From Spinacia oleracea (Eukaryota > Streptophyta > Magnoliopsida > Caryophyllales > Amaranthaceae): a stretch of 64,000 bases of DNA. Positions 5,603-55,509 of the stretch are shown piece by piece (within the stretch, counting starts at the first letter, position 1; each line of letters opens with the position of its first letter). A program made the translations under genes and the position numbers. The notes beneath the pieces are model-generated. The model did no database searches. It was not told the origin of the DNA and saw only the letters and a list, made by a program, of their open reading frames with translations. The DNA lies in the NCBI RefSeq assembly GCF_020520425.1, contig NC_079488.1, forward strand, positions 90,439,285 to 90,503,284. The letters run 5' to 3'.

Positions 5603-6423
5603 GCTCCAAATGTTCACAAATTATAAGAGAAATAATAACTATCAATAAAATTCAACACTTTAACTATCTTCAGAATCAAAAGAAAATAAAGTTAGAAAAT
5701 TCACATTGCACCTACTTCTCATTACCAGGTGCAAAGAATAGTTCAATGTGATTATTTCCCTCGCTACACCCAAAGAAACGAGCTAAACATTCAGATCGAT
5801 CAGATAAAACATTACTATCGCAAAATCCATACGTACTCAAAATTCCTTCGTCTTAACATCTTTCTTTCTAATGCCTTCTCCCATCAAAAGTAGGACATAA
5901 AATAAGTTAATGAACAAAGAAATTCTAAATCAAATTAGAGATATAACAACGGAAATGTACTTACTTCATGCAAATATTCAAGTGAGTTGCTCCAATCTCT
6001 TCTTAGAAACACCAATCAAGGATGTCCTCATAATCAAGCATAACACTACCACATGTTCATTAAGAAAAACCCTTTTTGGGATACTGAATAAGATGGTTTC
6101 ATCCCTCTTTCTCATTCTCGTAGCTTGATTTTTCAAAATTTGCAACCAATTAGTAGACACCTTTTTATGGTCCTCGACGGTGATAACATATTTATGAGTA
6201 GTTGATGATTGGGATGATGCCAATCTTGGGGATAGAGTGGTCATCTCTTTTTCTCGGTGCGCATCGGCCTTTTCATACGAACAATATATATCACATGATA
6301 AAAGAAATATACTCATATAAATTTCCACAAAAAGTGAGGTTAATACATTTTTTGGAAGAATCAAGGGAATTGGCCTACCAGTAAAATTGCCATTAGCTTG
6401 ACAAACAAATATCTAATTCATCA

Positions 6424-6529
6424 TTTGGACATGGTAAGCGAGCACGAGGCAAAATATCTTATGTGATAGTGACTCAATTGGGTTGTGATGTCTGATCCAA
6501 CGACCCTCATTAAACCACCATGTTCGCGC
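6424..6529 (-). pseudogene. Plant En/Spm-type transposase (Transposase_24-like) fragment, left of the hAT
   Basis: The minus strand reads REHGGLMRVVGSDIT, resembling the motif EHGGRVRGVG that ends the plant transposase (Ptta/En/Spm) domain. The preceding part of that motif (DILARALNK) is on the far side of the hAT insertion at 10452. The two parts abut through the 8-bp hAT target duplication, which supports one ancestral frame. It is decayed and non-functional. Confidence 0.5.
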
Positions 6530-9500
6530 CAGGCCCGGTGGTGGCCCTGTGCAACCTGGTCAACAGCACAGGGCCACCCAAAAATAAAGGGCCCAATCGA
6601 AAAGTCCAACTACCTATTAAAAAAAATGCTCTTAATCTCAGCGAATTGCGAAACAGACGTTCATATACTTCAGGCATTCAATTCAACTTCTAGGAAATCG
6701 AAAATCACGGGCTTCATGGCATTGAAAAATGAAAATCAATCACCTCACCAACTTCCCAAATTTAATTTTCCTACTTTCCTTCCTCAATATTCAATCTCCA
6801 TAACTCCATTCAATCACCATGATTCATCTCCCCTAATTTAATTTTCTTTCCTATTCCAAAATCTCAATTCCAAAAATATTGTTTTCAATTTTCAACTGAA
6901 ATTTCACATCAGATTATCAATTTGACCGAAAAAAATATTTTGCCATCAATGGAACCGATAATTTCGCAACAAACGGCTATATTTTCCCCCTTTAAATTCT
7001 TCTACTTTTTTCAAACAAATCATCAATTTCATATTTTCATTCGAAGAAAAAAATTATCAGATTTAGATTTGGGGATTTAGTGATTTGTTGAAGATGAAGA
7101 ACAAGATTCACAGAGCCAAAGGTATTTTCTTCTTAATTTCGTTATTTTACAATGGAATTTCCGATTTTTTTATTTTAAAATTGATTTTTTCGATTTTTTT
7201 ATTTTTCAATTGAATTTCCGAAAATTTTACAGTTCCTTATTTTAATTCGTTATTTATCAAAATTTCGTTATTTTTGATTTATTTTCGTTCAGAATTTCGT
7301 TCTTAATTTCGTTAATTTCGATCAAAATTTCGGTATTTTCGTTCTTAATTCGTTATTTTCGATTCTTAATTTGTTATTTTCGTTTCTTAATTCGTTATTT
7401 TCGTTTTATTTTTGTCAAAATTTCGTTATTTCGTTATTAGTGACTTATAGTTTTTCTTTTTTCCTTCTTTTGTTTTGAAGCTAAAGAGTAAAGATTAGGA
7501 GAAGCCGATAAGCCGATAATATCAGGTTGCATCGGTCCATCTTTTACTTTTAATTGCATTTTTTGTATTTTATTCTTTGTTAAATAATTTTTGGAATATT
7601 ATTTAGTTTCTAATTATGCCTCCTAAACGAAAGCATAAATCTGGATATGAGAAACGTGAAAAGAAGAGAAAAGAAGAGGAATTCAATATTTCTCAAAGAG
7701 GAGCTCTTGATAAGTTTGTCGTAAAAGAGCCTCGTGTTCATATTGATGAAAATCAAAATATTGATAATGTTAATGTTGAAATTCCTGAAAATGTGGTTAT
7801 TGATGAGAATGTTGGTATAGAAAATCAAAATTTTGATCATGAAAATGTAGGTGATGTACCCATTGAAGATGATAATGTTGATAATCAAAATGTTACTCCT
7901 GAAAACGTTGATACTAATTTGAATAATTCTATTCATAATGAAGATGATAATCGGGAGGATAATGGTAATGATAATGTAGAGCACACAAACCCATTTGAAC
8001 ATACATTTGATATATTTGATCCAAGAAATTGGGATGCTCTTGATTCTAAAATGATTGATTTGGTAGTGATGAAAGGTCCTAAAAGAGATTCTTCCATTGT
8101 GAAGGGTCCTAGAGATAAATTTTCTAGACGATTTACTGCTAATTTGTTCACTAGAGTTTTATCAAATGGGGAAAAGTGCGATAGAGAATGGCTTGTTTAT
8201 TCCAAAGAACTTGATAGAGTATTTTGTTTTTGTTGCAAAGTTTTTAAAAAAGGGATCGGTAGAGGGTTATTAGCGAATGAAGGTTTTAGTGATTGGGCAC
8301 ACATAGGTGAAAGACTTAGAGAGCATGAGATAGGCATGGAACATGTTAAGAATATGGCCACTTGGTATGAGTTACGCCTAAGACTCAATAAGAATAAAAC
8401 TATTGATAAAACGTCTCAAAGACTAATTGAGAAAGAGAAGGAGCATTGGATCAATGTTTTAAAAAGAATTATTTCAATAGTAAAGTTCCTTGCTAAACAT
8501 AATTTGGCCTTTCGTGGTTCTAATGAGAGATTGTATCAAAATAGCAATGGAAACTTTTTGGGCTTAATTGAAATGTTAGCCGAGTTTGACCCAATTATCC
8601 AAGAGCATGTAAGACGTATTACAAATGATGATATTCACGTTCATTATCTTGGACATACCATCCAAAATGAGTTAATACTTTTGCTTGCTTCTGCAATTAA
8701 AACTGAAATTATTAAAAAAATTAAACAAGCAAAGTATTTCTCAGTGATACTTGATTGTACCCCTGATGCTAGCCACCAAGAACAAATGTCTTTGATAATA
8801 AGGTATGTGAATGTTTCTTCGAATTCTGTTACCATTGAGGAATCTTTTTTAGGATTTTTAAATGTTAATGTTACTACTGGCCAAGGACTTTTTGATGTTA
8901 TACAAAACGAGTTGAAAAATCTTGATCTTGATATATTTGATGTGCGAGGACAAGGTTATGATAATGGGTCAAATATGAAAGGAAAACATCAAGGTGTGCA
9001 AAAGAAATTTTTAGATATAAATCCGAGAGCCTTTTATACTCCTTCTGGTTGTCATAGTCTTAATTTGGCATTGTGTGATATGGCTAACTCTTGTGGTAAA
9101 CCTAAATTTTTTTTTGGAACTATTCAACGCATTTATACAATTTTTTCCAATTCTACTAAGAGATGGCAAATTTTAAAAGATAATGTAAAAGGATTGACCC
9201 CAAAATCATTGTCGGCCACTCGTTGGGAGAGTCGTGTAGATAGTGTCAAAGCTATAAGATCTCAAATGTCATCTTTTAGAGAAGCTTTACTTGAGGTATC
9301 GGAATTAACTGAAATTGATTCCAAAATACAAAGTGAAGCTAAATCCTTAGCAGAAAATGAGCTTGGTGATTTTGAGTTTTTAATATCAATAGTTGTTTGG
9401 TTTGAAATATTATCTGCAATTAATATTGTTAGCAAACTTTTACAATCAAAAGATATGCTTATTGATGTTGCTATGGACAAAATAAAGGGGTTAATATTGT

Positions 9501-11885: not shown

Positions 11886-13245
11886 GATTTTTCATGAAAT
11901 GCCCATGAGATTTCTCCAAACGCACCAAATACACATGCGCGTTTTAAATCACATAATATACCCCTATTTTTTTTTTTAAAAAAATGCACCAATTGCACCA
12001 AATGCCCTTAAATATCTTTAATGACTAACGACCGTTAACTCCATTAGTATTAACCTCTAATTGCCTCTAATAAACTCTAGCTAACAAATACAATTGAATT
12101 TGAAGCCCAAAACTAAAGAACAATAAATCTGAAAATTGAAGAACAAAACCCATAAAATTGAAGAAGATAATATGAAATTTTTGAGAGTTTAATTCCTAAA
12201 ATAAAAAAAATCTAAACTACAAATTCGAATTCGAGTGGCTCTATTCTCTCTCTAATATACCTAAATTCTGCTGTTTTTCGCCCCTTGCTGCTACTACTAC
12301 TATGCTAAGCTCACAAAGAACCCAACTCCAAAATCTAAAATTTGGAAACCAACGAAAATCAAAATCTGAAAAACATAAAACAAATCATGCTGCGCTATAT
12401 TCTCTATCTCCTTTAATCGCAGTTGCTCCCTCGAATCAAAAAGAAGAACATAAATGCTGAAGAACGAATTCGAGAACGAAGTTCTGATTTGTATTGGGCG
12501 AGGTAGAATAGCAGCAGTTGCGATTAGGATAGAGAATAACACATAGTAGTTAGAATTAGATTAGAGAATCTGAAACAATTCGTAGATTAGAATGAATTTC
12601 GTTTTTAGATTTTAATTTCTTTTCCGATTTTGTTTTCTTAATTTCGTTCTTGGGGCTGAGTTCTTCTGCCGGAAGAGATAGCAGCAGTAGCAGCAAATAG
12701 CCGAGTAGAATAGCAACGATTGGCATTAGAGTAGAGAGGGACTGTAATCGAATTTGTAGTTGAGAATTTAGGAATCAAACTCTCAAATTTCAGATTATCT
12801 TTTCCAATTTTTCTAGTTTATTTTGTTCTTCATTTCCAGGTTTATTTTGTTCTTCATTTTCAGATTATCAAACTCTCCAATTTTTCTGCAGTGCTATTCA
12901 CGATTTCAATTCACTCGAAAATCTAGGTTCGAATATTTGGGGGTTTGGGTTAGCAATTGACGTGAGATTGAGAGGAGAGAGGAGAGTGAGAGGAGAGAGG
13001 GGATTTAGAGTCAATTAGGGTTCATTAGGTGTTAATTAGGATTAATTAGGCTCATCAACAGTTAATTAGGGTTAAATTAAGATTAGTTAGATTAATTAAG
13101 AGTTAATGTTAACGGAGTTAGACTTCCGTTAAGTCTAGAGGCATTTGGTGCAAATAAATTTAAGTAGGGGTATATTATGTGATTTGAAACGCACATGTGT
13201 ATTTGGTACGTTTCGTGAAACTTCATGGGTATTTTATGAAAAACT
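11886..13245. mobile_element. Mutator-like element (long TIR, non-autonomous), about 1.36 kb
   Basis: The left end (TTTTTCATGAAATGCCCATG...) and the reverse complement of the right end (TTTTTCATAAAATACCCATG...) match over roughly 150-190 bp, including CACCAAATACACATG and CACATAATATACCCCT. Terminal repeats of this length point to a MULE. I could not settle the 9-bp target duplication because both flanks are A-rich. The interior has no transposase and is itself partly inverted (12230-12300 against 12670-12770). It lies about 0.37 kb upstream of the CASPL5A start codon, so it may affect that promoter. Confidence 0.65.
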
Positions 13246-40159: not shown

Positions 40160-40979
40160 AGTCACTAGAGGAAAAATCTTTATAGGTGGCTCATCAAAGG
40201 TTGCCCTTATACAACAAGAGCCACATTTGAGAAAAAAAATTAATTTCCTTTTTTCTAAAAACGAAAATTTGGAATTCAGTTTCACAAGCGCAGCTTTAAC
40301 GTAATCAAACACAAATCTCATTTTGTCAGCTTCCGTGTTCAGCTCGGGTTGTGTTGCCTCTCCTCCACCTCCGACGGTGAGCCCGAGCAGGAGCAAAAGC
40401 CAGAATCCGGCGACCGGCGGCAAGGTAGTGTCTCATCTCTTTCTTCTCTCTTACACACGTACTCACTTGCACCTATCCATCTTCCTTTTGCTTATAATTT
40501 CTTGATTCCTCTGCAATTGTTTGTTAATCGCAATTCAATTGCATAAACCTAATTTTGCAATTGCAGTTTTTCTGATTTCCTTCAAAAAAACATTATGGGT
40601 TTTCTTATTGCTCAATAAACCTAATTTTGCAATTGCTCAATTTTCTGATTTCCTTCAAAAAAAAAACAATATGGATTGTTCTTCGGATGTTGCAATGTGG
40701 TATTTGTTGGTATTTGGAGAAATTTGCAAATGTAGAAGTTCTGATAATTATTGCCATTTTTGTTGGTATTTTTTGGGGTTTGTTTTTGAATGGTTTAGAC
40801 GATTCATGGTGATCCGAATTCGAGAATTTGCAAATAAAATGGAAAGCGAAGCATTGTTTGTTAGGAATTCTCCATTTAAGTATATGATAGTGTTTATCCT
40901 GCTGACCTAGGGTGGATTGTCTTGAGCATTGATATTCTGGCTTAATGATTAAGATAATTAATTTGAGTTGTATTTCAGG

Positions 40980-41075
40980 GTAAATATTATCCTAGGAGCT
41001 TCAGAAGAAAGAGTGATGCTTTCTGGGATGCATACTGTGGCAGATATATTTTGCTGCAGCTGTGGACAGATATAA
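40980..41075 (+). pseudogene. Captured Yippee-like exon
   Basis: After an acceptor TTTCAG the frame reads VNIILGASEERVMLSGMHT, then VADIFCCSCGQI and stop. This is the core of plant Yippee-like zinc-binding proteins (known pattern VNV-x-G-x-x-E-x-R-M-M-x-x-GMHTVADIFCxxCG), including the second zinc-binding CxxC pair. The following VGWKYE motif and the earlier exons are missing, so only about 31 residues remain. It shares strand with the other fragments in this element. The function in the intact family is a small folded protein of unsettled role. Confidence 0.8.
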
Positions 41076-42332
41076 AACCTGACATTGACTTGGTAGTTCT
41101 AATTGGAAAATAAATGCCCATTACTGATGGGTTTAGATTCTAATGCGTATTTGGGGGAAAAAACTACCTCCCTCAATTCTGTGCTTGTCTTTGGAACTCC
41201 GTCCCTTCTCTACTTCTCTTCTCCGAGTTCTCTCCCATTACTCGATCACCATGGCAAATTTCTCCACCACTGTTATCTACACTCTGCACCAGATTTCTAT
41301 CGCCACCAACACCACTAATCTCTCTCATATATTTTTAGTCATTTAAAATGAAACCAGAATTCTACAAAAATCCAATACATCCGTCAACAATCATCCTGCT
41401 CTTTCAAGTTCTTTCCGTCATCACTGTCAGGTATTCTTGATGCTGCACCTGAAAATTCCATCGCCATAATCTGTTCGTTTTCCCCCTTTGTTTTCGTTTT
41501 TGTGCTATAAATTGTTTCTACTATTATCGTTTTCTCAATTGATAATTTTTCCCCTAAATCTTCTAGTACAAGTTTAATTGAATGATGTTTGTTGACTTTT
41601 ATTTACTTAATCTACTCGAATTGACAGGTTTCAACATGAATTGAGGATTCATGTGCGTTTGAAACTTTAATTGCAGTTTAATTTCTTAAGGGGCGATTTT
41701 AGTATAATTTGATACCTCTACTAGTTGTTTGATTTAGCTTTTTGTTTGTTCAAATGTTTAATTTGATACGTTTAATCGTTGTTTGATTAAGTTTTCAATT
41801 TGTTCTAATATTGTAGCTTTGTGTTTGACTCCGGCATTCTATTTATTTATCACAAAACCGCAAACAATCAAGCTGTCTTGAGCAGCCTTCTAATAGGTAC
41901 GTAAATAGCTCTATCCTCTTGACTTGAAGAGTTTCAGTCAATTGGCTTCATATTCCTTAGATAGCATCATTTGGTATGATATGTGTATAAGCCTTCTTGG
42001 CTTCTTGTGTATCTCTTTTGTTATACAAATGTATCACATTCTTTTTCTTCAAGTTAGGAGGCCTTGGGACGCCTAATACCACCTAATCTCTTCTTGTAAA
42101 TGTACAGTTGTTGCTTTCTTCATTTTGTAGGCAAGAAGTTTTTTAGCATACTCTTGTGCCATGTTTAAGGTTAGAATGGAAGCGTGCCACTCATACATTA
42201 TAATTGTATCTTTTAAGCTTTGTTGATAGTTTCTCCCCTGAACTTAACCATTTTGACAAATTCTTTCCATTACTCTGTTGTTGCATGATGCATGATAGTC
42301 TGAAAACAAAGACTTAAAGGTTACACGACTTT

Positions 42333-42525
42333 GAAAAGTCTGTTCTTATAGACAAGGTGAGTATTTTCTATCTTAATATATTATGTCGTATTAGATATTC
42401 CCAACTTCTAGTTTAACTTGTTTTTCTTTTAACGCATTATGAGGCCCTTGACATTGATTGCGGTTGTGGTAGCCTTGCAATTGAACTAGTTTGGAATACT
42501 GGATGCAGATACACTTTCATTATCC
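42333..42525 (+). pseudogene. Captured cyclopropane-fatty-acid synthase-like exons
   Basis: A piece ending EKSVLIDK before a donor GTGAG (42356) is followed at 42441-42525 by EALDIDCGCGSLAIELVWNT, then GCRYTFII. This corresponds to the SAM-binding motif of plant cyclopropane-fatty-acyl-phospholipid synthases (known form LEIGCGWGSLAIEVVKxTGCxYTGIT). Key glycines are changed (IGCGWG to IDCGCG), so it would not bind cofactor normally. A further open piece at about 42712-42826, with TTKYLLKKARGLE before a donor, could be the next exon (family: QLKYAExKVKEAGL), but that part is uncertain. Confidence 0.6.
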
Positions 42526-43594
42526 AAGATAGTTCTATGTGGCAACCTCTATCTCTCATGTGAGTGTTTTAAACTTGTGTCTTACTTTTATTTTGTTAAA
42601 ATTTCATTTGAGTTTATGCAGTATAATTCATCTTCACTTAACTCACTCTAATTTCTTTCCATTACTACTGTTGTCATTATGTAATTTTTCTGTTGTAGCT
42701 GCTTAAATTTTTGGCTGAAAGAAGAAAACTACAAAATATTTGCTTAAGAAAGCAAGGGGCCTTGAAGCTTTGCAGTTTGATATACAGCAGCGAGTACTTA
42801 AGCTCACTGCAAACAGGTATGCTTTTTTTTTTTTAGTTATGCAGAGTACAATATCTGCAGGTGAAATTTGATACTTTTTCGTGTGTGAGAATTTTTGTTT
42901 TTGAGGATTCATGCTAAAGATATCGGGTGCATCTTTTTCCTTTATCTGGTAAAGAAGCAGTCCACCGATCATGAGTAGACATAACCTGAGCTTTGTGAAC
43001 CACCGTAAAGTTAGACTATACAGACAACCTTTCCTTTCATGGATACTGAGCATTTGGTTGTAATGTCATAACTACCGATGTGTTCTCATGTAGATTGGTT
43101 CTTTGGGATTGATTCGTAGATAGTTCTAAGAGTTCCAACTTGGTTAGAAGAATTTTGATTTTTGGGAATCTATCTTGAGAAACCAGATAATTGTGGCCTT
43201 ATTTATGTCATAGGCTTGTGGCAACTTCCATTGCTCATTTAAGTTGACGATTTAGTTGCTTAAGTATTAATTTGTAACTTGTTATCCAGGTGCGGAGTTC
43301 CAGGCTAATGATTTGGGATTAAAGGTTGAGAACACATCTATCGAACAACTTGGTTTGGCAAGGAAGGTGACAATCACCAAGGATAACACCACCATCATTG
43401 CTGATGCCGCATCCAAAGATGAACTTCAGGCTAGAATTGCGCAGCTTAAGAAAGAATTGTTTGCAACCGACTCTGTTTATGATTCTGAGAAGCTTGCTAA
43501 AAGAGTTGCCAAACTTTCTGGAGGATTTTCTGTTATAAAGGTTGGTGCAGCCACAGAAACTGAGCTTGAAGACCGTAAACTGCGAATTGAGGAT

Positions 43595-45093
43595 TGACAG
43601 GCTAAATCGCACTCCTATCAAAGATAAACCTAACGTTCACCAACTACAAATATAGCAAGGGAAGCAGGGATCATATCCACAGGGAAACAATGTTCTTTCT
43701 ACTATTAATCGGCAATTATAGACTATTGGGAAACAAAAATATGGATTGATTTGTATAATATAACTAGCTAGGACGATAATAAAATAGGGAAAAATCAGAT
43801 ATTAAAAGGTCTAGGGCATAGGTTCGCCGATGAACAACATTCCAGGATGACAACAATCGATAATAATCAATAAAACAGTTAATTAGACTAGCATGCTCTC
43901 TCGAATCGATACTAATCATAGACTTAGAATTAACGGGCTCTCGCTACGTATTAATCCCAATTCCACCTATTGACACAAGCCTAAACATCAAATTGCATCT
44001 CTCGAATCTTAATTTGATATTGCGAAACTAATACAATCAAACCTGCGCAAATCTAATTGCAAAGTAAATAGGAGCAATCAATAGGAATTAACAGCTAAAC
44101 CAACAATCAACAACAATTAATCATCCCTTCATATTCGTTCATGGATTCCCAAAACCCTAGAAAATAAACTACTCACACATATTTAAATTAAACCAAATAA
44201 ACATATTAAATAAAAGCATGATTGAAATTGAATAATAGAATCAGAAATAAAGTAATACCTAAACGAAGAACGAAGGATTAGCTGAAAGATTGAAGCTTTA
44301 AATTAATAAAAGTAGAGTAATTGGAAAATAAAAATTGAAGTTTTAAACTAAGCAATAATAATACGAAATTCCCAGAGAAGAACACCGGCTACTAAAACAC
44401 TAATTTAATATATATATATAGCCTCCCCCTTAAACCTACGGAGAGAAACAAACAAAGGAATACGGTTTAGGGCCGAAAACATGGCACCCCGGTTTGTGAA
44501 AACCTGCCGGTTTTCGGTGCTTCCCAACATAGAAAACCTACAGGTAGCGAAAACCTGACACCCGGGTTTGTGAAAACCTACCGGTTTCGCGCCTAAAATT
44601 AAAATCCTCCTTTTCTCAAAACCTGCCGGTTTTCATAACCCGGCCGGTTTTCGTTGCAAAATTGCACAAAGTCTCTATCTTCAAAACGTCATAACTCCTT
44701 CGTTATTTATCGGAATTAGGAAAATGACCACTCGTTGGAAAGACCTTGAAATTTAGAATCCAACCCAATTAAAATCACTGCATTTGGAGTTGTAGAACTT
44801 GAGTTATGATCAAAAGAGTGGACGAGAGTCGCTTTTCTACTTCTTTCACTATTCGCTTTGCTTGTTAACTCTTCCAACTCAATGTTTGTGCTCTTGAAAG
44901 TACATAATCTCTTGTATTGATTCAAATGAGTAGGAAATGCACAAAAATATGCTACTTTCTACAATGATGAACCTGAAACTACAACCATACTAAAAGGAGC
45001 ACATTAATACTAAAAATCGCTCCGAAGAGCTCATTTGAGATCAAAAAGTACTAAGGGACGGGGGTAAAAACACTATAAAATATGAACATATCA
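43595..45093 (-). repeat. LTR (left copy, 3' LTR in element orientation)
   Basis: Starts TGACAGG and ends ATATCA on the + strand. It contains repeated AAAACCTGCCGGTTTTC-like units near 44495-44660. Confidence 0.9.
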
Positions 45094-48000
45094 AACTTCC
45101 CCAAGATAGATCTTTTCTTGTCCCTAAGCAAAGAAATTATCGATGAATACAAGATCAACTTCACCCCTAACATATTTCAAAACTAAAGACACAATTCTAG
45201 GCAAAATTCAACGAGCATGCATCAATGTCAACCAATCAAATCCACCCAACCACAAATCCTCCCTAACAATCGTCACGCAAAGCGAACCACAAGTGCACAA
45301 TGGAATTCAAGACTAGTGCTCACACACTCGTCACTCATTTATGTGGCGGGTAAAAGATGTACCCGTTCGCTCTCCTCCCAACATATAAGTGAACAATGCC
45401 CTCCCAAACTCACAACACTCGCGTGTCTAGAAAAACATACACTCAACCTAGTAGTCCACTCGAAATGTGTCATGTCATCACTTGCATTGATAAATAACTA
45501 CTTTAATATTAATACGATTCTATGCACAAAGGTCGAAAGGTCTTCAAAGCTTGTAATGATAGGCTAGGTAAGGGTGCGGTAAATTTGGGTAAAATGTGAG
45601 CTTAAAGCCTTGGCTTTGGGGAGCATAAATCCTAGCAAAACCATGATCAACCAAAAATAATGACCACAACTCTCCCACTCAACACATGATAAAACAACAA
45701 ACAAACCACACCATACTTTCTTGCCTTTTTCACAATTATGACCAACCACTCATACAGATATGGACTTACAATACTTGAGTGAAACAATACTTTGAAATTT
45801 TTCTGAGAGTAACGATTTTTTTTTTTTTTTCAATCTCTCTCTTTTTTTTCTTTCTTTTAGAAACCTTCACATTTTCTATTCTTCTCATCTCTTTCATTTT
45901 TCAACTCATTTTTTTTTTCTTTTACAAACAACAAACATGATAAGAAGAACTCCCTTTTTTCAATACTCACTATGCTCGAAAGTACCACACTACAACTCCC
46001 TCACCTCACTACTATTAGCTCCCCCAAGCTAGGCTTGGGACTAGTAACCAATGGGGCTTTCACGGGCTTGTAATATGGTTAGCCACCGAATAAAGGGCAT
46101 AAGCAACAACATGGGTAGAAAAAGAGGGAACAAATGTATCTAATTTCATCTGAAGGCTACCTAAATAGAAAATGCCTTCGTCCTCCTCAATGTGCATGTA
46201 TATGAGTCATAAAACATTACTAATAGTTGCAAACCAATACTCAAAATCAACGACACACCAGGAAACTATCACACATTCCTAACAAAGTCAACTAGCCAAG
46301 CACCAAGTTCACAAATAGTTGGTCAAAGTTGACTCATGCAAAGGCACCAAAATAGTCGAATATTAAATCTCGGTCAACATATCAACAATGCTCGTCATCA
46401 AAAACCAAGAATCAAAACATTTCAATCAAGGGGCACAGGGAAGCATGATCTTGTATTCTTGGAACGTATTTTTGTTGTTTTTTTTTTCAAAAGCGATAAA
46501 CTACTCTAGAAAGCAATAACACATACCTCCCCCAAGCCAAACTCAGCAATGTCCTCAGTGCTTGAAGGAGTGGAGATAGAGGGTCTCAATCTTCATTGAA
46601 CCCCTCCGGCTCCAACTCTTATGTGCCTCCCGCAAAGCGATTGGTTAGTAAATAACCAACCAACGAGCGTAGAAGCTTGTCATGCGCACTCGCACATCTT
46701 TCGTGCAATAAGACATGCACGATAATCAACAACAAATTTGCAAAAAGTCCGAATGAGCTCTACGCCAGTAAGGAGTAGGATGCCTAAAGGAAGAAGAACA
46801 AAAAGAAAAAACAATAACAAAAGAAGAATAAGAAAAGGAAGGAAAAGAGAAAGTAGGCATACTCTCCTTATGGAAGTTGTTTTTGCGGACTATTAATTCT
46901 CCAACCTCAATGATCAACGAAATAGCTCTCTCTGTGTTTTGGAATTCATGGTGGACAGGCTCTTCACCATATAGATCTCTCTGCAAAGCATCCACCTCTT
47001 CTTTGTAAGTACTGTAAGTACCTGCAAAAGATTCACAAAGAGGAACATTCTCTATTGGGTCATTGGGCTTTTGATTTTCGTGGGGAGGAGGAAGATCCTC
47101 AAGCAAAGGTTTTACGGGGAAAGAGAAGGGGAGTGAGACGGTGTAAACGGGGCTAAGAATAACCCTTCTTGGACTTGGAATATGAGGGGTAGGGGTTGAC
47201 ACAACAACAAGGGTTTTATCAACTTCAACTTCCTCATGGACTTGCTCTATAACGTATGGCTTTTCAGTTTCAACAAATCCTTCATCCATTGATCCAACAG
47301 TCACATCATCATCCTCCAACTCATCCTCAACCTCTAGAATAAGTTCCTCCCACTCTTGGTTGCCTATGGGTTCACTCAGTTGACCCCCATCCCCAACACA
47401 ACTCGAATCATTTTTTTCAATAATTTCTTGAACTTTTCTAAATCTCTCAAGAGTAGCCTTACTAGCTTTAATAATCTCATTAGTAGCCTCTTGAGATCTA
47501 GTATCTCAATCTCAGAGTTTAATCTTCTTAATTCCTCTAAGAAGCTATCTCTGCTTTCTGATTCAGGTTAAACAGGATTGGGCAAGGGTTCACAATAATA
47601 CACGGGAGAAGCAACAATGGAATCATGAGGAAAAACGTTGATATCCATGCAAGGGTTAGATAAGTCATTAGAATAGACATGATTACCATAAACATTAGAA
47701 TGCACCTCATTATAACAAGCATTCAAGGGAGAGGGGGTAGAAACATGTAGATTGTGCTCATAATTTGGATTAGCACATGTAACATGAATGGACATTTCAC
47801 GCTCATACAAATCCCTTGCAAACCACATATAGTAATCTCACATATCATCCAAAGACAAGGCTCGAAAATCACCATTAAATCTACTTTCTATCACATTCCT
47901 TGTATACTCATTTAAACCACCATAAGCAAAACCACAAGAATCCCAAAGATTAAGATTGTGGTAACCAATAAAATCATTTAGCCTATCGAAATACACCCAA

Positions 48001-48232
48001 AAAGGCTCATTTACGAACTGAGGGAAAGAATAATAATCCATATTTTCGGGGGGAAAAAAATAAATAAAAAAAAGTAAAAAAAAATAAAAAAAATTTAAAA
48101 ATTAACTAAAGAAAATAAAATATATACATGGTCTCAAAGAACTGGAAGTTCTATGAGACTCAAGAAAATAATCTAAATCATAAAATTAATAGCAGAAAAT
48201 TAAACCGTTTCCCCGGCAACGACGCCAAAATT

Positions 48233-49726
48233 TGACAGGATAAATCGCACTCCTATTAAAGATAAACCTAACGTTCACCAACTACAAATATAGCAAGGGA
48301 AGCAGGGATCGTATCCACAGGGAAACAATGTTCTTTCTACTATTAATCGGCAATTCTAGACTACTGGGAAACAAAAATATGGATTGATTTGTATAATATA
48401 ACTAGCTAGGACGATAATAAAATAGGGAAAAATCAGATATTAAAAGGTCTAGGGCATAGGTTCACCGATGAACAACATTCCAGGATGACAACAATCGATA
48501 ATAATCAATAAAACAGTTAATTAGACTAGCATGCTCTCTCGAATCGATACTAATCATAGACTTAGAATTAACGGGCTCTCGCTACGGATTAATCCCAATT
48601 CCACCTATTGACACAAGCCTAAACATCAAATTGCATCTCTCAGATCTTAATTTGATATTGCGAAACTAATACAATCAAACCTGCGCAAATCTAATTGCAA
48701 AGTAAATAGGAGCAATCAATAGGAATTAACAGCTAAACCAACAATCAACAACAATTAATCATCCCTTCATATTCGTTCATGGAATTCCAAAACCCTAGAA
48801 AATCAACTACTCACACATATTTAAATTAAACCAAATAAACATATTAAATAAAAGCATGATTGAAATTGAATAATAGAATCAGAAATAAAGTAATACCTAA
48901 ACGAAGAACGAAGGATTAGCTGAAAGATTGAAGCTTTAAATTAATAAAAGTTGAGTAATTGAAAAAAAAAATTGAAGTTTTAAACTAAGGAATAATAATA
49001 CGAAATTCCCAGAGAAGAACACCGGCTACTAAAAAACTAATTTAATATATATAGCCTCCCCCTTAAACCTACGGAGAGAAACAAACAAAGGAATACGGTT
49101 TGGGGCCGAAAACCTGGCACCCCGATTTGTGAAAACCTGCCGGTTTTCGGTCCTTCCCAACATAGAAAACCTACAGGTAGGGAAAACCTGGCACCCGGGT
49201 TTGTGAAAACCTGCCGGTTTCGCGCCTAAAATTAAAATCCTCCTTTTCTCAAAACCTGCCGGTTTTCATAACCCGGCCGGTTTTCGGTGCAAAACTGCAC
49301 AAAGTCTCTATCTTCAAAACGTCATAACTCCTTCGTTATTTGTCGGAATTAGGAAAATGACCACTCGTTGGAAAGATCTTGAAATTTAGAATCCAACCCA
49401 ATTAAAATCACTGCATTTGGAGTTGTAGAACTTGAGTTATGATCAAAAGAGTGGACGAGAGTCGCTTTTCTACTTCTTTCACTATTCGCTTTGCTTGTTA
49501 ACTCTTCCAACTCAATGCTTGTGCTCTCGAAAGTACATAGTCTCTTGTATTGATTCAAATGAGTAGGAAATTCACAAAAATATGCTAATTTCTACAATGA
49601 TGAACTTGAAACTACAACCACACTAAAAGGAGCACATTAGTACTAAAAATCGCTTTGAATAGCTCATTTGAGATCAAAAAGTACTAAGGGACGGGGGTAA
49701 AAACACTATAAAATATGAACATATCA
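48233..49726 (-). repeat. LTR (right copy, 5' LTR in element orientation)
   Basis: Same ends and the same internal CCGGTTTTC-like units as the left copy. It abuts the primer-site-like sequence at its left edge. Confidence 0.9.
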
Positions 49727-50429
49727 AAGATGCAAAGAACGCAACTTTTGCTGCCATAGAGGAAGGCATTGTTCCTGGTGGTGGTGCTGCTCTTGTTCAT
49801 CTCTCAACTTGTGTACCTTCTATTAAGGAGAAGCTTGAAGACCCTGATGAACGTCTGGGTGCTGACATTGTGCAGAAGGTAAACTCCATCTCCTGCATTC
49901 AGATTATAGGATATTGGGTCGGACTCCTGCCATTTTAAAATTTGGGCTTCTCGGCTATGCCTAGCCCCGTTAATCTGCGTGTATCTTTTAGAGTTATCTA
50001 CAAATAATAAAATTTCGAACCGGCACTGAAAGCTAACCTGCTTTAACTTCTAGATTAAGTAGAGAATGCAATTTTAGTTGAAGGGTCAGCTTTGGTTGAA
50101 GACCAGATAATGTTTTCTACCAAAGGTCAAACAGAAATGCAGCGTGATACACTAATAGTGTATGTGACTTGAATTTCCTTCTAAATACTGAAGTTATGAG
50201 ATGCTAACATTCAACTCGGTATTTGGTTATCCTTTAAATTCCCCAACGTGATCACATTAGTAAGACATCCTTTGCACTTTTCCAAGTCACCACATAACTA
50301 CAATATGTGGCCATTACCTACTTTATTTCGAACTGTAGTTAAACTAGTAGAATTCTTGATCTTATGAGATGGGGAAAAAAGGGCGAGTTTTGTGTCTAAA
50401 ATAGTTAATCATGTTCTTGCTGATGCAGG

Positions 50430-50570
50430 TTCTACAGGTTCTACAGTGTGATTGAGCCTGGAGACTCCGTACGAGTTATTGGAGAATTTGATAACCAGGG
50501 AACTAGTAATGTAAATCATGACAATAATCTTCTTGTTATACACCCAAACCTACTACTTTCCGGGACTCGG
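50430..50570 (+). pseudogene. DNA2: Captured DNA2 (replication helicase/nuclease) exon
   Basis: A 47-codon open exon between an acceptor GATGCAG and a donor GTAATC reads SVIEPGDSVRVIGEFDNQGT, then DNNLLVIHPNLLLSGTR. The second block matches the start of the Dna2 nuclease domain of plant DNA2 (known form L-I-V-H-P-D-x-L-x-S-G-T-R-V, followed by the Cys of the Fe-S cluster). The exon is open and lightly changed (PN for PD). GTTCTACAG is duplicated at the acceptor, so two acceptors 9 bases apart are possible. No other DNA2 exon is in the window, so it is a captured piece. Confidence 0.7.
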
Positions 50571-50616
50571 GTAATCTTTTCTTCTTTTTGTCAAATCTAT
50601 GCATTATTTTTGTCAA

Positions 50617-52210
50617 ATAGGAATTATTAACCCTTTACATGTTTAATATACTTAGTATTAGGTTTCCAATCCTTATTCTCATCTACTTTGGTCAATTTAT
50701 GCACATTTAAGGCTCTTTTGATCCTTACATGTCATATTTTGACTATAAAAGTTGTTTTTGCTCCCAACTCTCAACTAATGAACCAAAATAGGAATTATTA
50801 ACCCTTTACATGTTTAAAATACTTAGAGCAGGATTATTGGGGAGGATATATATATCCTCTCTTCTACTCTCTCTCCTTTTCTCCTTTTGACACATCACAT
50901 TCTCTTTCTTCCACATCATTTCTCACTATCTTCTTCCTCTTCCTTTTCCTATTTCTATTCTTTTCCACACATCAAAGAGGATCCTCTCTTTTTTCCTCTC
51001 TCTTAGTTTACATACCCCAATACATATTATTTTTCTTATTAAAACATTTAATTTAGGAATAATGATAATTTCAAGTGTTTAAAAAATAAATTAGCCTAAT
51101 TAATTATTTTTCCATTACTATTGATAAAATAAATCGATTTGTAACCTTGAAAATAATAAACTTGTTAATATAACATTAATAATAATTAAAAATATTACAA
51201 TATAATGACAGTAATTAACCAACAATGACAAAAATAAACCGTAACATTGACAAGAATAAAAACATTACTACTAACATTAATTAATGCAATACACTGACCG
51301 TAATTAAAAAAAGTGACAGTAAATGAAAAACAATGACAATGATAAACCTTAACGGTGACAATAATAATAATAAAAATTGCAGTTACTACTAATAATTCAA
51401 AGCAAAAATCTACTACTCAACTCATCTATCAGTTTCAGATACATATGTATGCTTCAAGTTCATCATGAAAAAGATGACATGTATGAAATATGGTTAAAAT
51501 TAGGTTCATTTTATAGAGAAAAAATAAATATAATCGTTGGTATTTTTTTATTTACAAATAAGTTGCCGTTTTTTATTTATTATCGTTATAAAATTATTAC
51601 CGTATGCAAAATTGTTTAAAACTACCCAATTATTAAATGACATGTGGTTTAATATATCCTCTAGCTAACCCAATATATCCTCTCCATATGGAGGATCCTC
51701 TCTTCTACTCCTACATTAAAGAGGATCCTAATTTAGAGGAGAGAGAGTGTAAGGGAGGACATATATCCTCCCCATTGTTGATGCTCTTAGTATTAGGTTG
51801 CCAATCCTTATTCTACGTACTTTGGTCAATTTATGCACATTTAAGGCTCCTTCGATCCTTACATGTCATATTTTGACTATAGAAGTTGTTTTTGCTCCCA
51901 ACTCTCAACTAATGAACCAAAATAGGAATTCTTAACCCTTTACATGTTTAAATACTTAGTATTAGGTTGCCAATCCTCATTCTCATCTACTTTGGTCAAT
52001 TTATGCACATTTAAGGCTCGTTTGATCGTTCTATGTCATATTTTGACTAAAATAGTTGTTTTCGCTCCCAACTCTCAATTAATGAACCAAAATAGGAATT
52101 CTAAATGCTTTTCATGTTTAATTCACTTAGTATTAGGTTGCCAATCCTCATTCTCATCTACTTTGGTAAATTTATGCACATCTAAGGCTCGTTTTGGTCA
52201 TTATAGGTCA
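50617..52210 (+). repeat. About 170-bp tandem repeat, four copies, one split by a MITE
   Basis: Units begin AGGAATTATTAACCCTTTAC and run through AGTATTAGGTTGCCAATCC to CTCAACTAATGAACCAAAAT. Starts are about 50621, 50790, 51923 and 52093. The second unit is interrupted at 50826-51786. Confidence 0.8.
50826..51786. mobile_element. PIF/Harbinger-type (Tourist-like) MITE, 961 bp
   Basis: Ends GAGCAGGATTATTGGGGAGG and, inverted, GAGCATCAACAATGGGGAGG, with an ATATATCC block inside both, flanked by TTA on each side (the PIF/Harbinger target). The interior is AT-rich with no transposase. Confidence 0.75.
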
Positions 52211-52620
52211 TATGTACCTATATCGAGCCAAATGAGCCTTAGATGTGCATAAAGAACTTGAAATGAATCTTAGTAACCTTTAACTAAGCATGTAAAACAT
52301 AAAAAAGGTTTAGAAAGTGTCCTTAGGTTCATTTGTTGATAGTTGGGATCGAAAATGCCATTTTTGGCCATAAATGGCCTATATCGACCCAAATGAACCA
52401 TAGGCGTGCATAACGAACTTGAAATGAGTTTCATAAACATATAAATAATCATATTAATCATTAAAAAGGTTTAGAATGTGGAAATAGGTTCGTTTGTTGG
52501 TAGTTGGGATCGAAAATGCCATTTTTGGCCAAATATGATTTATATCGAGCCAAATGAGCCTTAGATATGCATAAAGAACTTGAAATGAATCTTAGGACAC
52601 TCAGAAAGTTGTTTTCGTGA
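52210..52620. repeat. Second tandem family, about 3 copies of a 140-170-bp unit
   Basis: Each copy has ATATCGAGCCAAATGAGCC, then GTGCATAAAGAACTTGAAAT and TTGGGATCGAAAATGCC. It is partly an inverted relative of the preceding array (shared TTTATGCACATNTAAGGCTC). Confidence 0.65.
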
Positions 52621-52694
52621 CCAATATAATTTCTTCTTTCGCATATGAAACTTAATTTAATTTATTGGTTTGCATGTACGTTGTTCTTTTAAAG

Positions 52695-52799
52695 GTTTTC
52701 AAAACTCCAAGGGAGGGGCCCTTTACCAAAGAGGAGTTGGATGAAGTTTGAGACAAGTGGGATACTTACTTCAACGATTGTGAACTACCCTCAGTGTAA
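52695..52799 (+). pseudogene. Unassigned captured last-exon-like segment
   Basis: After an acceptor AAAG the frame reads VFKTPREGPFTKEELDEV, then an in-frame TGA, then DKWDTYFNDCELPSV and TAA. Continuous sense on both sides of the TGA suggests a once-coding terminal exon of about 34 residues. I do not recognise the source gene. Confidence 0.45.
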
Positions 52800-53044
52800 T
52801 AAATAAAGCAGGCTTGTAGTTATCCATGACTCTTACATTATTTTGTTATTTATCGATTCAATTAATTACATTTGAATTTATTCGGTAATATTATTGGAAA
52901 TTTGAAATTTATATCATTTTTGAGGAATGTCAAGCTAATGTTTGGTGAAACAGTATTCTATAAATTATAATGCAGAATTTTATATTGCAAAATCAGATGT
53001 TATATTGCAGAATATCAGGAATTATATTGCAGATTTTTTTAAAA

Positions 53045-53345
53045 AAAAAACTCAAAAGTTACCCTTGTTTACAACAAGAGCAACTTATGTGAAGCTTATA
53101 AGTTGTCCTTGTTACAAACAAGAGCAACTTATGTGAAGCTTATAAGTTGCCCTTGTTGCAAACAAGAGCAACTTATAAGTTTCACATAAGTTGCCCTTGT
53201 TGCAAACAAGGGCAACTTATAAGATTATAAGTTGCCCTTGTTAAGGGCAACTTTTGATAATTTTACAAAAGTGACCCAGGTTGCCCTTGTAATTGGCAAC
53301 TTATAAGCCTATTTTAAGGGCAACTTATGATGTTTTAATTTTCCT
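53045..53345. repeat. Palindromic subterminal repeat array of the Pack-CACTA
   Basis: About six copies of a unit with TTGCCCTTGTTGCAAACAAG followed by GGCAACTTATAAG, many being internally palindromic and occurring in both orientations. Such clusters beside the TIR are the known binding platform for CACTA transposase accessory proteins. Only one or two related motifs lie at the left end. Confidence 0.75.
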
Positions 53346-53355
53346 CTAGTGAGTA

Positions 53356-53606
53356 CTCCCTCCGTCCCTTAATACTCTGACCGGACACGCTTGCCAATGC
53401 ACAACTTTGACCACCAATTTCTTTAACTACATATTATAAAAACTTATAAAAATATTAATATTTTGAAAATAAATATTAAGATGAAGCCAACAATATATTG
53501 TATACTAACATTTGTTTTCATATACTACAAATAAAATAGGGTCAAAGTGAATTATGTGAATAGTGCAAAAAGTCAAAATGGGTTGAGTATTAAGGGACGG
53601 AGGGAG
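53356..53606. mobile_element. Stowaway-type MITE, 251 bp
   Basis: Perfect terminal inverted repeats CTCCCTCCGTCCCTTAATAC and its inverse, with TA on both sides (53354-53355 and 53607-53608). It sits directly at the Pack-CACTA target duplication. Confidence 0.92.
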
Positions 53607-53874
53607 TATAATTTTTTCATTTTTTCGTATTCATAATCAATCTCAAAAAATAAATTGCCAGCAATTTTTTTTTGTCTTTTTGCTATTTTGTCTTTTGCTC
53701 TGATATGTGTGTCGCCACACATATCCGATATGTATTTGTAGTACCTATAAAAAGGTGGGTGATAGTTACAAAAAAAATGATTAAAATAAGAAAAAGTGAG
53801 TGAGAAAATTGTATTTTTTGTGGGATAAGAGGGGTGAGATGATACAAATTCATGTCCGAAAAAAATATAAAGCA

Positions 53875-55509
53875 CACTACAAGAAAACGCATCTTTTCCG
53901 ACCGCTTAAAATAGTCGGCAAAGTCCTTAAAACAGTCGCTAAAAAATTTAGCGACCGTTATTAGTCGATAAGGGTGGACAGTGTCTTTATGATCGGTATT
54001 TGGGTAATTATCGACTGGAAAGCAGTCGCTAAATAAGTTTAGCGACTGTTTAAGACAGTCGGTAAATTAACGACTGCCTAGCAGTCGATAAATTTACGAC
54101 TGCCTAGCAGTCAGTATTTTAACGACTGCTAAGTCGGTCAGTAATTTACCGACTGTACAAAACAGTCGGTAAATTGCCGACCGTCTTAGCAGTCGGTAAA
54201 TCAGTAATTAGCGACCACTAAACGGTCGGTATTTTTATTAAAAAATTAAAAAAAATCAAATCCATCAACTGAGAATACCCAGTTAATAGTTCGATTTCCT
54301 CAAAGAATATGAAAATAATTTCATTATCCGGCTTCAATGTCGATTTCCTTTATTTGCACCAAAATGTCTAACTCATGATGAACAATTTCCAGAAAACGAA
54401 AAAGGGGATGAATTAACATATACATATAAAAAGAAAATTTAATGAATTTAGAAAAAAGAGTTAAATAAATCCAACCCAACTACAAAAATAAAAATTCAAA
54501 TAATTACATACCAAAATTTCTAATAGAGACTAGATCTGAAAATTTAAAAATCACCAAATTACTAATTCAAACAAACTGGACCAGAAAGACGGAAATCTGT
54601 AACTTCCGACGCTGCTCATGCTCCCTAGCTTCTTACTTCAATTACTTTGTTCTCTCGAGTTATTCACCTACATCCACATATAGAGATACAGAATCATCAG
54701 TAAGAATTTTAATATCAAACAAGAAGACGTAAATAGGAGCTAAGAGCCGGATTAACCATAAACTCATCAAAATTTTAATTATTAAAAACAAAATTGATAT
54801 ATCACAAAAGGGGAGAAGAGAGGACGAAATTAAGAACATAAAAAACGAAAAGAAGAAGGAATATGGGTAGAAAAGTGAAAACATACCATAATACTAGATC
54901 TGGAAATCTAAACTGGAGCAAATTCCTTATAATCGATCCAAAATTGAAGGCTTGATGCGCTGATGTTGTTGTGTTGATGCGTTGATGTTGATTTTTAACA
55001 AGAAAAAAAGTGGGGGAGAGGGGGAGGTGGAGGGGGAGGCAGAGAAAGAGAACAACCGTGAGAGAAAGAGAGGAGGTGAGAGAAAGAGGCGGGTTTCAAG
55101 TTTAGATTAGGGTTTGGGGTGAGGGTGAGGGTGTGGGACTGGGCTTTAATTAGGGTTTGGGTGAGGGTGTGGGTGAGGGCAGTCGGGAATTTAATTTTTT
55201 ACCGACTATTTATTTTGCGGTCGTAAATAATATTTTACCTACTGTTTGGACGGTCGCTAAATAATTTTTTTCCGACCATCTGTTTTGCGGTCGCTAAATA
55301 ATAGTTTACCGACTGCTTGGACGGTCGCTAAAATAAAAAAAATTCGACCATTTGTTTGCTGTCGCTAAATAATATTTTACTGACTGCTTGCGCGGTCGCT
55401 AAATAATTTTTTACCGACTATCTATTTTGCGGTCGGTAAATCTCTTTTTACCGACTAATTTATGAGCAGTCGGTAAACACAGACGTTATAAACGCGAATT
55501 CTTGTAGTG
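53875..55509. mobile_element. Non-autonomous CACTA transposon, 1.6 kb
   Basis: Starts CACTACAAGAAAACGC and ends CGCGAATTCTTGTAGTG. Both ends carry dense subterminal motifs of the form CAGTCGGTAAA / CGGTCGCTAAA (about 53900-54235 and 55180-55480). No transposase is present. The flanking triplets (GCA and ATA) do not match, so either the target duplication has eroded or the element has recombined. Confidence 0.75.

Follow-up and report, generated by a model that had tools for sequence, protein, structure and literature searches.

How Pack-type transposons gain several genes is an open question, and it is raised directly by an element at positions 40163–53351 of a 64,000-nucleotide stretch of the spinach (Spinacia oleracea) genome, hereafter the window (G000:C2:90439285-90503284 in the 894.21-Mb assembly of 242 contigs that was searched; contigs are given as C1, C2 and so on, and single loci by L numbers). 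The element is a genuine plant CACTA transposon with pieces of five host genes. Our analysis makes it very probable that it is a non-autonomous Pack-CACTA of a multicopy family, which would have taken up DNA of at least five host genes stepwise, by repair copying, and would later have received a long terminal repeat (LTR) retrotransposon and a miniature inverted-repeat transposable element (MITE).

The complete element measures 13,189 bp on the + strand and is bounded by perfect 13-bp terminal inverted repeats (TIRs) with the CACTA/CACTG-type start of the CACTA (CMC/EnSpm) superfamily, CACTAGAGGAAAA at 40163–40175 and its exact reverse complement at 53339–53351. On either side lies the 3-bp target-site duplication (TSD) characteristic of the same superfamily, AGT at 40160–40162 and again at 53352–53354. 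Perfect CACTA/CACTG-type 13-bp inverted pairs spaced 0.3–30 kb apart numbered one in the window against a mean of 0.06 in the 300 first-order Markov windows that served as null model, and such a pair together with a 3-bp TSD occurred in 0 of the 300, so that the CACTA-type ends and the AGT duplication claimed in an earlier note on this DNA are borne out. Subterminal repeats, likewise a mark of the superfamily, are present and strongly one-sided, with 10 motifs of the GTTGCCC/GAGCAAC type in the final 300 bp of the element, 1 in the opening 300 bp and none in the intervening 12,589 bp. We regard the element as non-autonomous.

Both ends belong to a multicopy family with common ends, as is expected of Pack-TYPE elements and of Pack-CACTAs in particular. 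The right-end query (52590–53360) matched 40 places among the best 40 of 479 candidates, which were scored; the 39 places outside the window are 89–93% identical to it, and at 34 of them the match stops within two bases of the equivalent of 53351. The first 1 kb of the element gave 51 matches among the best 40 of 338 candidates scored. Six copies, including that of the window, were compared at both ends, and they range in length from 7.0 to 13.2 kb. In five of the six the TSDs match at the called ends (AGT in the window, AAT in L021, ATG in L023, GTT in L029 and GGG in L024+25); in the sixth, L022, the left TIR is degenerate and a TSD, TGT/TGT, appears after a one-base shift. The left end alone was seen in L027, L028 and L047 within the DNA examined. 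Since the two ends are found jointly in further copies, the TIR and TSD are not those of a shorter element, the outcome that could have undone the first description. The left end with its UTR-like stretch (40163–40616, +) is 94–95% identical to L021, L027, L028 and L029. Donors could be assigned neither to its UTR-like part nor to three interior stretches, 41072–42146, about 42515–42642 and 49921–50035. The right end (52197–53351, +) comprises 161-bp repeats, an exon-like piece at about 52697–52798, the GTTGCCC subterminal repeats and the TIR. Long arrays of the 161-bp repeat lie near the right end of L021 (about 5680–8050 of that locus) and likewise in L024, L027 and L029, with a seemingly variable copy number. 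The exon-like piece at about 52697–52798 was considered as a captured host exon of the window copy and rejected: it is covered by 40 of the 40 scored right ends and is therefore native to the family, its peptide being readable in 5 of 12 right-end loci (minus-strand loci not turned round), and it has no Pfam match. According to the totals given in a spinach repeat survey, 290 CMC-EnSpm sequences amounting to 83 kb (PMC6337768), this CACTA family is probably under-annotated in this plant.

Copies that share these ends differ in what they carry, which is what the earlier note had proposed to look for as support for serial capture. Cargo was scanned against Pfam in L021, L029 and L022, and the frames of L023 were judged by eye. 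L021 holds a thiamine-phosphate synthase (E 5.8e-51), a Yippee piece and a phosphatase piece (Metallophos, E 5.6e-4, just under the cut-off) that appears by eye to be PP2A/PP6-like, while L029 holds thiamine-phosphate synthase (E 1.1e-19). L022 carries an antisense pectate lyase (E 2.7e-16) together with a reverse-transcriptase-like piece under the cut-off, and the same frames were recognized by eye in L023.

Within the window copy, each of the five captured fragments has its donor or a homologue elsewhere in the same genome, a feature of Pack-TYPE elements. Close donors were found for CPN60 and DNA2, and more distant homologous genes for the cyclopropane-fatty-acyl-phospholipid synthase (CFA), DNA polymerase alpha (POLA) and Yippee fragments. 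The earlier note had named four of them, all on the + strand, and these stand; its list of donors missed POLA. Capture from several genes on one strand of a single CACTA is thereby upheld, and the introns within the fragments point to DNA as the source. The CPN60-alpha fragment lies in two parts (42817–43594, + strand, the 3′ portion of an intron with an exon from 43290; 49727–49895, + strand, the exon to 49878 and the start of the next intron). It agrees at 880 of 948 positions with a gene at C2:99.21 Mb, in which additional CPN60 exons and a terminal stop are present, and its best match in the PDB is the chloroplast CPN60-alpha chain 5cdj_A. The DNA2 fragment (50036–50609, +) consists of intron pieces, an exon at about 50438–50570 and the start of the next intron, with a 9-bp duplication at the acceptor; 426 of 475 positions are identical to C2:91.64 Mb, where three PF08696 stretches lie in order. 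In a Pfam scan of selected frames of the window element, the DNA2 piece passes the curated cut-off (PF08696, E 5.9e-9) and the second CPN60 part falls below it. DNA2 fragments containing two exon stretches also occur at G000:C3:154.21, C6:74.63 and C4:165.73 Mb. Two of these three, L055 and L056, lack family repeats in the flanks examined, so that DNA2 may also be cargo of another type of element.

The remaining three fragments are more diverged. The POLA fragment (42643–42822, +; exon 42700–42816, frameshifted) is weak in Pfam (E 0.094, under the cut-off), and a PDB search with it returned nothing. It is 72% identical over 139 bp to C3:142.72 Mb, where three frames match DNA_pol_B; the label 'alpha' is a tentative one, based on sequence motifs. 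The same piece adjoins family repeats in L040, L042 and L044/L047, at 83–88%. The CFA fragment (42147–42514, +) is identical at 308 of 413 positions to a gene at C3:11.37 Mb (L060) that matches CMAS (PF02353). The Yippee fragment (40672–41071, +) has an intron-like part followed by an exon from 40979 that, compared with sister copies, is cut mid-exon at 41071. It is present at four other places (94–98%); only part of the family has it, and 40672–40841 is also found in copies without the Yippee exon. Beyond the four close copies there is no close parent, the best matches being one of 77% over 78 bp, to a stretch resembling a gene at C1:111.01 Mb, and one of 90% over 40 bp. Because the window pieces of Yippee and CFA match nothing in Pfam, their identities rest on the homologues; for Yippee these are Yippee-Mis18 matches under the curated cut-off, in the longer form of L021 (E 7.5e-4) and at C1:111.01 Mb (E 3.2e-4). 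One locus at C6:43.68 Mb (L026), 98% identical to the Yippee piece, was considered as the Yippee parent and rejected. This region (G000:C6:43682000-43691000) is a composite that also holds CID-domain and Y-family polymerase (IMS thumb) pieces and adjoins a relative of the LTR retrotransposon described below; no exact CACTAGAGG-type end was found in the 9 kb examined.

The element has the length of 13 kb given in the earlier note; more than half of this, about 7.1 of the 13.2 kb, was added by later insertions. An LTR retrotransposon on the − strand (43595–49726; LTRs 43595–45093 and 48233–49726, 97% identical; TSD AGGAT/AAGAT with one mismatch) sits inside the CPN60 exon and splits it by 6.1 kb, and a MITE of about 1 kb (50826–51786), PIF/Harbinger-like by its TIR and TTA duplication, divides a tandem repeat region (50615–52213, +) that the sister copies L021 and L024 have as well. 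With these two removed, the CACTA proper amounts to about 6.1 kb, and the idea that the entire 13 kb is cargo was rejected. Both insertion sites are empty in a related copy at C6:106.75 Mb. The LTR pair differs at 38 of 1,494 aligned sites, a Kimura two-parameter distance (K2P) of 0.026, which would place the insertion roughly 1–2 million years ago on the plant rates that we assume. The minus-strand primer-binding site presumably resembles tRNA-Asp, and two frames of the retrotransposon were scanned with no Pfam match.

The divergence of the fragments suggests an order of capture. To its donor or homologue, K2P is 0.073 for the CPN60 intron (433 sites), 0.068 for the DNA2 intron (247 sites), 0.195 for CFA (345 sites) and 0.358 for the POLA exon (116 sites), and since it climbs from CPN60 and DNA2 through CFA to POLA, capture was probably stepwise. 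Judged from these distances, POLA is most likely the oldest capture, CFA the next, and CPN60 and DNA2, at nearly equal divergence, the last. The join between CPN60 and DNA2 is common to the window, C5:104.66 Mb and C2:29.46 Mb; at the last of these the two adjoin the family right end including the TIR, and the left end was not found. One other locus, at C6:106.71-106.75 Mb, has most of the exon series. Own element ends were not found there, and since it carries the family 161-bp repeats it is read as a truncated element rather than as a donor locus. Between it and the window copy K2P is 0.020–0.036, close to that of the LTR pair.

The most likely route of capture is suggested by the sister copy L021, where a 10-bp spacer that is intact in the window, L030 and L026 has been replaced by about 1.2 kb of thiamine-phosphate synthase gene DNA, 90% identical to C2:101.52 Mb. 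At the left junction, which is common to L027 and L029, 32 bp separate the element from the clear donor match, and this filler holds 15 nt identical to donor sequence 30 bp inside the match; the 15-mer is not in the window. The scar suggests that donor pieces enter as copies when broken DNA is repaired. In the window, the POLA and CPN60 fragments meet at GTATGC, a sequence present both in the POLA lineage and in the gene for CPN60. The templated filler, the loss of the spacer and the GTATGC overlap may together be read as gap repair with template switching. Accordingly worded as a model, a CACTA transposase supplied in trans would presumably recognize the element ends; a break or gap arising within an element already in place would be filled with copied donor DNA, the template being switched at short matches; the resulting sub-assemblies would be inherited and might be reshuffled among copies; and the LTR retrotransposon and the MITE, inserting after assembly, would have disrupted most of the remaining coding potential. 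It is tempting to speculate that the family acts as a modular exon shuffler, in which repair-copied cassettes (thiamine-phosphate synthase, Yippee, POLA and the joined CPN60 and DNA2) are inherited and recombined among copies, a proposal to which we give about an even chance.

Several observations weigh against stepwise uptake by repair copying. The scar belongs to sister copies rather than to the element of the window, its polarity relies on the three copies with an intact spacer, and the right border in L021 is nearly blunt, with an overlap of about 1 bp; the borders in the window yield one microhomology and a filler of about 115 bp that has no assigned origin. As to the order, K2P is 0.034 for CPN60 exon sequence and 0.023 for that of DNA2, and 38 sites in the DNA2 intron that follows the exon are unchanged, so that a single clock does not fit all values. 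The POLA divergence rests on 116 exon sites, a lost paralogue as the true donor would inflate K2P, chiefly for POLA, CFA and Yippee, and the order of CPN60 relative to DNA2 is beyond the resolution of K2P.

Alternatively, two neighbouring CACTA insertions may have lost their inner ends and moved together, enclosing the chromosomal DNA between them, as in the model published for Pack-CACTAs of Arabidopsis and for Pack-TYPE elements (PMC8903248; PMC13317346). Such joint mobilization could account for the border at 41071. To the left of it lies the part that bears Yippee, and to the right is DNA of which no other copy was found as far as about 41440 (from there to about 41660, matches of 69–74% exist elsewhere in the genome). 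It is nevertheless rather unlikely, since the middle of the window copy is free of the GTTGCCC/GAGCAAC-type motifs (L021 and L029 have one each in theirs), the donors and homologues are spread over at least two contigs, C2 and C3, and the thiamine-phosphate synthase insertion in L021 shows a 10-bp loss with templated filler. Repair copying into an existing element remains the preferred reading.

A different possibility concerns the products of the element. Spliced chimeric transcripts, perhaps even proteins, might arise from fragments of different donors, as is known at the transcript level for Tgm-Express1 (PMC1947982), and the earlier note had pointed to usable splice borders. GT/AG borders are indeed kept by the POLA, CPN60 and DNA2 pieces. 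The claim fails for Yippee, which is cut mid-exon and runs into a stop, and for CFA, in which the acceptor of the homologous gene seems by eye to be lost; moreover, POLA is frameshifted and the 6.1-kb insertion divides the CPN60 exon. Chimeric products are thus improbable as a whole, and the broken features of these four fragments make a present-day chimeric protein, as predicted from the sequence, unlikely. That a chimeric locus or a cluster of pseudogenes already in place should lie by chance between two unrelated CACTA ends is scarcely credible even though most of the series recurs at C6:106.71-106.75 Mb without recognized ends, because both ends recur jointly in other copies with matching TSDs, the C6 copy retains the family 161-bp repeats, and at C2:29.46 Mb CPN60 and DNA2 adjoin the family right end and TIR, though its left end was not found.

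Other repeats lie in the same window. A Stowaway-like MITE at 53356–53609 (CTCCCTCCGTCCC ends, TA duplication) abuts the right TSD of the CACTA, and further to the right, at 53875–55509, is a small separate CACTA-like element (CACTACAAGAA ... TTCTTGTAGTG) whose 3-bp flanks, GCA and ATA, mismatch. A perfect 13-bp inverted repeat, TGCACCAAATGCC, with AAT flanks at 11994–13152 may represent a short DNA transposon.

The donors, the copies with partial cargo and the junction with templated filler all occur in one assembled genome, which makes both the order and the route of capture testable. If the family does shuffle exons in a modular fashion, this genome would keep successive steps of capture together with a sequence-level scar of capture for a plant CACTA. 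In the literature collection that was searched, no paper joined spinach genome, CACTA and transposable elements. The earlier note had considered so many donors much less usual for a CACTA; this does not hold, since Pack-CACTAs with multiple donors have already been published in soybean and maize, and the window element is ordinary for its kind. The soybean CACTA Tgm-Express1 of the wp allele, as described in PMC1947982, similarly contains fragments, introns as well as exons, from five host genes unrelated to one another; it is 5.7 kb long, resides in an intron of a host gene and has demonstrated chimeric transcripts, whereas the spinach element is larger owing to nested insertions and draws on other donors. 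The Pack-CACTAs of Arabidopsis and maize reported in PMC8903248 also have non-autonomous CACTA ends and DNA drawn from several loci; joint mobilization is proposed there, while here one sister copy carries a scar resembling gap repair. The Chenopodium CACTAs described in PMC8978399, including 'Jozin', come from the same plant order and share captured gene fragments and tandem arrays, but each has fragments from a single host gene or superfamily beside its own coding domains. Finally, the Pack-TIRs attributed to gap filling in PMC8277862 are animal elements, reported as mostly single-copy, and they resemble the spinach family in showing microhomology and inserted sequence at the borders of capture.

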